Origin: Candidatus Woesearchaeota archaeon | GTDB taxonomy: Archaea > Nanobdellota > Nanobdellia > Woesearchaeales > UBA10216 | DNA length: 34,303 nucleotides | Assembly: GCA_016935265.1 (NCBI GenBank) | Contig: JAFGRH010000022.1 | Coordinates: 1 to 34,303 of the forward strand | Reading direction: 5' to 3' | In this document: positions 10,623 through 12,592 of the stretch, piece by piece | Layout of the letters: each line of letters opens with the position of its first letter | Position numbering within the stretch: the first letter of the stretch is position 1 | Made by a program: the position numbers and the translations under genes | Notes under the pieces: model-generated | What the model saw: only the letters and a program-made list of their open reading frames with translations | Databases searched by the model: none | Told to the model about the DNA's origin: nothing

Positions 10623-11201
10623 CTAAGCCAGCAGCCCATAAATCCTCGGCGCAACGCTAGTAAAAACCCACACGTTAAATGCTATGTGCGTCGCTATGAA
10701 AAGAATTGTCCTTTCTACCCTGCTGCCAAGGAAAAGGTAGCCGGCAGCTATTATCGCGTCGTAAATAACTGTCAGGATTATCCCTGCCCAAGTAATTCCC
10801 ATCCCCGAGAATACGGGAACAAGAAAGCTCACGGCAATTATTGCTATGAAGGAAACAAATGTGGCGTGGGTAAAGTGCGCCGTAAAAAGGAAAGCGAAGA
10901 AGAGCGATACAACCCCCACAACTGCTGCCGGAATCGTCCCGTAAAGGAGCCCTGTTATCACTGTTCCCATCATCACAAGCTCTATTCCCAGCGATACCCT
11001 GATAGCCCTGTTATAGAGAAGCGAGACAGCGCCTATTGCCGCAAGCGCAGCCATTACCGCGATTCCCTTTATGTAGCTTATTCCAAAGAAAAGAGCTATC
11101 CCCAGCGAAACGCCTATTATAATAGATGCCTTGTCTTTCCAGAGGTCCTTAATAGTAAGAACCTGCTTCCTTGACCAGTTCCTTAGCTCATCCCTTTTCA
11201 T
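10623..11201 (-). CDS. Polytopic membrane protein, tandem paralog A
   Basis: MKRDELRNWSRKQVL... start at 11201; shares NRAIRVSLGIELVMMGTVITGLLYG with the two neighbours. Confidence 0.75.
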   Translation of the reverse strand: MKRDELRNWSRKQVLTIKDLWKDKASIIIGVSLGIALFFGISYIKGIAVMAALAAIGAVSLLYNRAIRVSLGIELVMMGTVITGLLYGTIPAAVVGVVSLFFAFLFTAHFTHATFVSFIAIIAVSFLVPVFSGMGITWAGIILTVIYDAIIAAGYLFLGSRVERTILFIATHIAFNVWVFTSVAPRIYGLLA

Positions 11202-11202
11202 T

Positions 11203-11781
11203 TTATCCAAGCAGCTCAAGCAGCTTTGGCGCAATTACAGCGAAAACCCAGATGTTGAAAGGTATGTCTGTTGCGGCAAAAAGAAAGGACTTCCACGGCT
11301 GGCTCCCGAGCAGTATGTAGCCCGGCACAATTATCACGTTATACAGAATAGCCATGAGTATCCCCAGTGAGGTTATGCCCATCCCCTCAAATAGCGGTAT
11401 TGCTATGCTTACTGCCCCCAGCCCTATGAAAGATACCAAAGTGGAGTGCTGGAAGCTCTGGTTGAACACTTCAGCTGCAAAAAGCGCTACAGCTCCCACA
11501 AAAAAGGCTGCCAGCGGGCCGTAAATCACCCCTGCAAGCACCGTCGAGAGCACTATGAACTCAAAGCCGAGCGAAATCCTGACAAACTTATTGTAAAGCA
11601 GCGAGGCAAACCCGAGCAGGATAAGCAGGAGCAGCACTATCCCTGCCTTTACGTATGCCCAGAAAAAAAGCAGCAGCGCAAGGCAGATAACAGCCAGAAA
11701 AACCAGCCTTTTCCTCTTCTTAAGCTGGTCATACCTGAAAACTCGTTCCTTTGCCCACTTCCTGATTTCATTTCTTTCCAT
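11203..11781 (-). CDS. Polytopic membrane protein, tandem paralog B
   Basis: MERNEIRKWAKERVF... start at 11781; NKFVRISLGFEFIVLSTVLAGVIYG parallels paralogs A and C. Confidence 0.75.
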   Translation of the reverse strand: MERNEIRKWAKERVFRYDQLKKRKRLVFLAVICLALLLFFWAYVKAGIVLLLLILLGFASLLYNKFVRISLGFEFIVLSTVLAGVIYGPLAAFFVGAVALFAAEVFNQSFQHSTLVSFIGLGAVSIAIPLFEGMGITSLGILMAILYNVIIVPGYILLGSQPWKSFLFAATDIPFNIWVFAVIAPKLLELLG

Positions 11782-11806
11782 TTTAAAAAGAGCGGGCCTG
11801 CTGGGA

Positions 11807-11893
11807 CTTTCATGCGGCAATCTCATGACGTTATGCACGAAGCGCACCGGTCGGCTTCACGCCGACCTAACGTCCAGGTGGAGTTTGCCACCT
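11807..11893 (-). other. 87-nt tRNA intron in the T-loop (position 59/60)
   Basis: Bulge-helix-bulge-like junction: TTCA(54-57)/TGAA 4-bp helix, bulges AA|A and AG|T; then helix GTGGCAA/TTGCCGC; inner GACGTTA/TAACGTC closing hairpin GGTCGGC-GTGAA-GCCGACC and hairpin TGCGC-TTC-GTGCA. Confidence 0.78.
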
Positions 11894-11914
11894 TTTGAAC
11901 CCAGATTACATGGT

Positions 11915-11929
11915 TTCTGCGTAAAAGCA
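11915..11929 (-). other. 15-nt tRNA intron at about 37/38 in the anticodon loop
   Basis: 22 nt lie between CGTGG and CCATG; removing TGCTTTTACGCAGAA leaves the 7-nt loop CTTCGGA (anticodon TCG). The bulge-helix-bulge is imperfect (CTTC vs GCAG, one mismatch). Confidence 0.7.
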
Positions 11930-11990
11930 CCGAAGCCACGTGTGCGATCCTGGTTACACCACAGGCCCGTGCAGCGAGGAAACTGCGCAC

Positions 11991-11999
11991 TATAAAAAA
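11991..11999 (-). promoter_or_regulatory. TATA box for the tRNA-Arg gene
   Basis: Minus-strand TTTTTTATA ending 22 nt before tRNA G1. Confidence 0.5.
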
Positions 12000-12007
12000 C
12001 CTGTGCT

Positions 12008-12592
12008 TTATGCGGTCATCAAAAACAGCACAGGCTCCCCAAGAACCCTGAATATTACGAAGTTGAACACAAAGTTTCCTGTCAGGAAGAAAACAAGCTT
12101 CATCCTGAGCTCAACATCCGGCTGTATCATGTAGAGCGGCTGGGCAATTACATTGTAAACCACCACTCCAAGCATGCCCGCCCAGAATATGTTAACGTTA
12201 TATCCTGCAGCTATGGCAGCGGCTATGCCGGCAGATGCCCTCGCAGGAATGTAGCCGATTACAAAAGCGTCAATTGCGGACGAAGCAATCTCCGCGGCAA
12301 TCGTAACAACTATGCCGAAAATCGCCCCTGCCCAAATGCCGTAAACATAGCCGACAAGGACTGTTCCGAACGTTACAAGCTCAAAAGCAGGCGGTATCCT
12401 GATTACGCGCTTGTAAACCTGCGAGAACGTTCCAGCTAAAGCAAGAATCCCTATGCTCACAATAGCCCTCACCTGGCTCGTGAAGAGCATAGCAGCAGCA
12501 ATAACCAGCAGGCTGATGATAACAGCCTTCTTGTTCCTCCTGCCCCACCTGTAAATCCTTCTGGCAAACTCAGGAACACGCTTCTTAACCAT
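12008..12592 (-). CDS. Polytopic membrane protein, tandem paralog C
   Basis: KRVIRIPPAFELVTFGTVLVGYVYG parallels paralogs A and B; basic N-terminus followed by TM helices. Confidence 0.75.
   Translation of the reverse strand: MVKKRVPEFARRIYRWGRRNKKAVIISLLVIAAAMLFTSQVRAIVSIGILALAGTFSQVYKRVIRIPPAFELVTFGTVLVGYVYGIWAGAIFGIVVTIAAEIASSAIDAFVIGYIPARASAGIAAAIAAGYNVNIFWAGMLGVVVYNVIAQPLYMIQPDVELRMKLVFFLTGNFVFNFVIFRVLGEPVLFLMTA

Follow-up and report, generated by a model that had tools for sequence, protein, structure and literature searches.

A probably spliced tRNA-Arg(UCG) gene with a T-loop intron of a repeated three-hairpin family in a Woesearchaeota-like archaeon

Introduction

The window, which is the whole stretch of 34,303 nucleotides analysed here, carries on its minus strand a tRNA-Arg(UCG) gene interrupted by an intron in the anticodon loop and by a second one in the T-loop (Table 1). 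This gene is very probably a functional tRNA gene spliced by the endonuclease EndA, with a T-loop intron that derives from a repeated three-hairpin family spread within the genome and recurring across the order. The transcript would fold with a bulge-helix-bulge (BHB) at the T-loop, EndA is predicted to excise both the 87-nt T-loop intron and the 15-nt anticodon-loop intron, and an archaeal ligase is predicted to join the exons. The mature tRNA-Arg(UCG) would then read the CGA codon, whose rarity in this genome (11 of the 9498 codons counted) may make the gene a minor one. The T-loop intron itself would be one copy of a three-hairpin family that has spread among the tRNA genes here. The host appears to be a Woesearchaeota-like DPANN archaeon, judging by its ProRS, of which the eight best named relatives are 59–64% identical and all labelled Woesearchaeota.

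Table 1. Features of the tRNA-Arg(UCG) locus in the window
Feature	Coordinates	Strand	Basis
tRNA-Arg(UCG) gene, two introns	11793..11968	-	in-silico spliced 74-mer called tRNA-Arg(tcg) by ARAGORN
Exon 1, 39 nt, tRNA positions 1-37	11930..11968	-	sequence, re-splicing; conserved in relatives
Anticodon-loop intron, 15 nt, at 37/38, imperfect BHB	11915..11929	-	sequence, re-splicing
Exon 2, 21 nt, tRNA positions 38-59	11894..11914	-	sequence, re-splicing, alignment with relatives
T-loop intron, 87 nt, at 59/60	11807..11893	-	re-splicing; identity to tRNA-Lys(CUU) junction region
Exon 3, 14 nt, tRNA positions 60-73	11793..11806	-	sequence, re-splicing, alignment with relatives
TATA-box-like TTTTTTATA, 23-31 nt upstream of the tRNA	11991..11999	-	sequence; inference
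T-run directly past the tRNA, possible terminator	11785..11789	-	sequence; inference
BHB central helix, 5' strand TTCA (exon, positions 54-57)	11896..11899	-	sequence, energy
BHB central helix, 3' strand TGAA (intron)	11809..11812	-	sequence, energy
BHB inner helix, 5' strand GTGGCAA	11885..11891	-	MFE fold
BHB inner helix, 3' strand TTGCCGC	11814..11820	-	MFE fold
Hairpin P1 (AGGTGG-CAAACT-CCACCT), competes with inner helix	11876..11893	-	inverted repeat; 100% paired in three-hairpin alignment
Hairpin P2 (GGTCGGC-GTGAA-GCCGACC)	11849..11867	-	inverted repeat; covariation
Hairpin P3 (GTGCGC-TTC-GTGCAT)	11833..11847	-	fold; 98.6% paired in three-hairpin alignment

The interrupted gene and its exons

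A sequence-only reading of this DNA had proposed that removal of 15 nt at 37/38 and 87 nt at 59/60 leaves a 74-nt tRNA-Arg(UCG). Re-splicing by script yields this molecule, and ARAGORN identifies the fully spliced 74-mer as tRNA-Arg(tcg). The acceptor stem GGGCCTG/CAGGCCC, the T-stem CTGGG/CCCAG and the anticodon loop CTTCGGA read in the sequence as that reading gave them, and every stem and invariant loop position of the exons is intact. ARAGORN reports no tRNA in the unspliced gene or when the first intron alone is removed; removal of the second intron alone gives a tRNA call with the anticodon loop unresolved. The gene is detected in the whole window neither by ARAGORN nor by Rfam at gathering scores because a removable intron interrupts the T-loop, so that the earlier expectation that tRNA finders miss it holds for these, the two finders compared.

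A permuted or split tRNA is excluded, since the exons lie in normal order at one locus. A group I intron was likewise discarded, with no Rfam match to one in the window and an intron of just 87 nt. The tRNA is flanked on both sides by membrane-protein genes on the same strand. Three similar-looking membrane-protein open reading frames form a minus-strand tandem (10623–11234, 11203–11847 and 12008–12592), with the tRNA between the second and the third. The GTG start listed for the second (11847) lies inside the tRNA, and the ATG at 11781 is a likelier start.

The exons are 69–76% identical to the tRNA-Arg(UCG) genes of seven relatives, and the anticodon loop is identical in sequence; exon conservation in relatives, which had been named as a test of the gene, is thus borne out. 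The 15-nt intron at 37/38 is absent from the aligned tRNA-Arg(UCG) genes, and one relative (G005) has its own T-loop intron in this gene, with a sequence different from that in the window. Another test named was a second tRNA-Arg(UCG) gene; none is seen in the assembly, which is 88% complete and so might lack an intact second copy or a further endonuclease subunit.

Splice junctions

The junction at 59/60 has the form of a canonical 3-4-3 BHB, in which the central helix TTCA/TGAA is bounded by 3-nt bulges (AA|A and AG|T) and followed by a 7-bp inner helix. The sequence-only reading had drawn this motif. The explicit T-loop BHB fold has an energy of -45.8 kcal/mol against -47.0 kcal/mol for the MFE fold and so lies 1.2 kcal/mol above it; that the 4-bp central helix is unformed in the MFE fold counts against splicing as proposed. 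Compared with dinucleotide shuffles, the T-loop intron region folds much more stably (z = -5.45). At the 37/38 junction, a strict BHB does not appear to form; the pairs read from the sequence are C-G, T-A, a TxC mismatch and C-G.

Two partners are open to the 5' arm of P1: the other arm of its hairpin, and the 3' end of the intron, with which it forms the BHB inner helix. The mean longest stem for the two pairings is 5.2 and 5.5, against 3.6 and 3.6 in shuffles, so that the P1 hairpin and the BHB inner helix are competing folds. The former lies 5.9 kcal/mol above the MFE in the window.

The gene might instead be a pseudogene, in which a palindromic repeat inserted into the T-loop wrecked the tRNA and splicing was lost. 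Related three-hairpin copies do also lie between genes, away from tRNAs, and the 37/38 junction is imperfect. However, the exon stems and invariant loop positions have stayed intact and conserved in relatives, introns of unrelated sequence retain BHB pairing at their T-loop junctions, and the same arrangement is found in tRNA genes for Lys, Phe, Asp, Ser, His and other amino acids, for most of which no uninterrupted copy was found in the assembly. The pseudogene explanation is therefore extremely improbable.

Splicing endonuclease

A search with PF01974 gives one gene in this genome (G000:C9), coding for an alpha-type EndA of about 177 aa that is closest to the N. equitans alpha subunit and to M. 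jannaschii EndA. When the EndA is aligned to the A. pernix alpha chain 3p1z_B, gaps face the insertion, and the crenarchaeal-specific loop is thus missing. For the ARMAN-2-specific loop, the comparison covered a whole-chain alignment to 4fz2. Neither a second EndA subunit nor a three-unit chain was found in the 88%-complete assembly with the profile, which a very divergent beta subunit could escape. The relatives with a PF01974 match have one gene each, except for G005, which shows two matches on two contigs covering overlapping complementary parts of the family. The look-up of the EndA type, which the sequence-only reading had advised, does not support the broad-specificity endonuclease that it predicted.

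In published descriptions, the alpha4 type of EndA is narrow and cleaves only canonical motifs (PMC6379350; PMC4033280). Since most T-loop introns of this genome are canonical, a narrow EndA could process them. A narrow alpha4 EndA accounts less easily for the 37/38 intron and for the two T-loop introns of least length, and the former, which lacks a strict BHB while the EndA found is of the type described as narrow, counts against splicing of the tRNA-Arg(UCG) transcript as proposed.

T-loop introns in this genome and across the order

A permissive tRNA scan combined with a pattern search for interrupted tRNA genes shows that at least 11 tRNA genes of this genome, including the one in the window, have T-loop introns of 14–89 nt. 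They comprise Arg(UCG), Lys(CUU), Lys(UUU), Asp(GUC), Ser(GCU), His(GUG), a Leu(CAG)-like gene, Arg(GCG), Phe(GAA) and two class II genes with odd anticodons. After T-loop splicing, 10 of the 11 are called as tRNAs by ARAGORN, although the anticodon needs care in three of these ten because of remaining introns or an atypical gene; the exception is the Asp gene, in which a second intron is left in the anticodon loop. Read by eye, most of these introns have the canonical 4-bp helix with 3-nt bulges, and the T-loop intron of the His gene is 84 nt long, as the BHB implies. Similar introns occur in different tRNA species of the genome: the T-loop intron in the window and the junction region of tRNA-Lys(CUU) (G000:C65) share 91% identity over 100 nt.

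Several other loci of this genome have unusual features. Two tRNA-His(GUG) genes, L003 and L072 (G000:C57), are separated by about 1.2 kb; one of them has a T-loop intron, and the other is intact. The class II tRNA-like loci L004 (G000:C26:6119-6204), L078 (G000:C53:801) and L011 (G000:C27:907) are given the anticodons GAA, GAA and TAT by ARAGORN, at odds with their long variable arm, and L011 also has an A1-C72 mismatch; these three may be pseudogenes, assembly errors or cases of unusual decoding. The tRNA-Glu and tRNA-Gln-like loci L009 (G000:C58:13280-13382) and L075 (G000:C52:1701) have apparent introns in the D-arm region.

The T-loop-intron signature GGTTCRA..TGRAADTCCC is present in 179 of 288 genomes of the order, against 19 for the control, which is the reversed pattern. 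A phylum-wide draw gives the signature in 78 of 108 genomes of the order and in 7 of 49 others of the class. These counts refer to genomes sampled from the order or the phylum, and because the signature demands TGRAADTCCC, it favours strict junctions and misses relaxed ones. When 50 loci sampled from the order were examined, none was an ARAGORN tRNA before T-loop splicing and 39 were afterwards.

The three-hairpin core

Five introns in different tRNAs of this genome have a core in common. Alignment of the core in the window with introns of families f7 and f10 resolves it into the three hairpins P1, P2 and P3. In this alignment 99.0% of cells are paired, 53 show a change on both sides where shuffles give 14, and the covariation score is 0.527 compared with 0.215. 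The P2 hairpin is paired in 94.7% of cells over 19 different copies, with 34 double changes; these copies were gathered with the loop motif as the search key, and the stem is not part of the key. Among T-loop introns of at least 55 nt, drawn from several families, a hairpin of at least four pairs closed by C-RURAA-G occurs in 12 of 26, against 0.025 expected in shuffles.

When 371 genomes of the phylum are searched with a covariance model of the core, 37 have a match; 35 of these belong to the order, and the matches in the other two are weak. Searched against Rfam, the core-bearing loci match no curated family, the only matches being to tRNA or chance ones below threshold. Short T-loop introns with no core are numerous.

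The pattern of change in these stems allows the possibility that the core is a functional non-coding RNA freed by splicing, for the sake of which the intron is kept. The compensatory changes that preserve P2, and P1 and P3 along with it, point in this direction, as does the excess over shuffles of both pairings open to the P1 5' arm. This explanation is nevertheless unlikely, because core-less short introns are numerous in T-loops and no known RNA family matches; moreover, the conservation could stem from recent copying or from selection on hairpins at the DNA level, and the P2 copies were collected through their loop.

Occurrence and possible spread of the core

Core-like copies are found in introns at T-loop, D-loop and anticodon-loop positions and in intergenic multi-copy repeats, which suggests that the core may be mobile. 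In family f7, one intron has up to 15 blastn matches within one genome; read by eye, these lie mostly in the T-loops of different tRNAs, with some in the anticodon loop or the D-loop and others just 3' of tRNA ends or between protein genes. Core matches number 14 in G057, 9 in G093 and 6 in G170, and several of those in G057 lie about 55 nt from contig ends, as repeats would give.

By blastn over 59 genomes including this one, the intron in the window is confined to this genome; a 19-nt match in G037, in no recognisable tRNA, was taken as chance. The exact core pattern is absent from genome- and viral-contig collections, which may omit this genome and very near ones, and two family-f7 patterns have zero matches in the viral contigs.

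Some copies have distinctive surroundings. At L244 (G238:C61), a tRNA-Pro gene with the element in its T-loop is followed by an apparent second intron and 3' exon, an arrangement that looks like the scar of an insertion at the 3' part of the tRNA. At L295 (G036:C61), a core copy lies between two identical T-arm pieces of tRNA-His and adjoins an intact tRNA-His. The intergenic copies L288, L287 and L290 (G057, G069 and G127) are part of a longer repeat of about 170 nt. C-runs border this repeat: it begins with GCAACTGG/CCAACTGG after the first and, before the second, ends near GAGCAA or GACAA.

A tentative but plausible hypothesis is that the core is a mobile three-hairpin element which uses tRNA introns, above all in the T-loop, as a safe harbour and spreads to tRNA and intergenic sites. 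Insertion would be free of cost to the host because EndA would splice the element out. T-loop introns might also have spread by gene conversion through the near-identical T-arms of tRNA genes, with no dedicated mobility. The shared site at 59/60 and the similarity of introns across different tRNAs of one genome would be expected from such conversion, which does not, however, account for the core at D-loop, anticodon-loop and intergenic sites and is somewhat unlikely. It is very unlikely that a Y1 transposase of the IS200/IS605 type mobilises the core as a REP- or MITE-like DNA element. The core is indeed palindromic, multi-copy and also intergenic, and Y1 transposase genes are present in 8 of 12 genomes searched, but none was found in the incomplete assemblies of this genome, G148, G238 and G225, all of which have copies of the element, and no transposase stood out by eye among the open reading frames beside intergenic copies.

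Significance and comparison with known systems

Counts of tRNA genes in these small-genome archaea are probably too low, which bears on completeness estimates, on codon-reading claims and on ideas of host dependence in DPANN. Non-canonical tRNA introns accompany broad-specificity endonucleases according to the textbook rule, and this rule is put to the test by T-loop introns that are common in a lineage whose genomes each gave only a single alpha-type EndA gene. The presence of the core in introns at three tRNA positions and between genes offers a handle on how tRNA introns move. In the open-access literature, which leaves most subscription journals outside its scope, T-loop introns on such a scale in Woesearchaeota-like DPANN were not found; searches for tRNA introns of Woesearchaeota or DPANN yielded only group I introns in rRNA and papers on other subjects. 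The 59/60 position and the spread of introns are known from Crenarchaeota; new here is a three-hairpin core that is absent from Rfam and present in introns of several families.

Position 59/60 is a listed site of non-canonical tRNA introns in Crenarchaeota and Nanoarchaeota (PMC4090602). The introns described there resemble those in the window in this position, in BHB logic and in the occurrence of several introns per gene, whereas here the host is a Woesearchaeota-like DPANN archaeon with one alpha-type EndA gene found, and the T-loop introns are order-wide and in part share a three-hairpin core. Transposition of tRNA introns in Thermoproteales (Fujishima et al. 2010, as cited in PMC4090602 and PMC4033280) is similar in that very similar introns occur in different tRNAs of one genome; the present case differs in phylum, in its conserved structured core and in having related copies between genes and just past the 3' ends of tRNAs. 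Circularly permuted tRNA genes of Thermofilum pendens and Cyanidioschyzon merolae are joined at 59/60 (PMC3218864), with a BHB at the identical T-loop position. The exons here are in normal order, so that the interruption is an intron and not a permutation of that kind. The mobile-element model of tRNA gene disruption in Caldiarchaeum (PMC3293823) likewise links intron gain with mobile DNA, and the apparent second intron and 3' exon downstream of tRNA-Pro at L244 adds to the likeness; unlike in that model, neither an integrase nor a plasmid was identified here.
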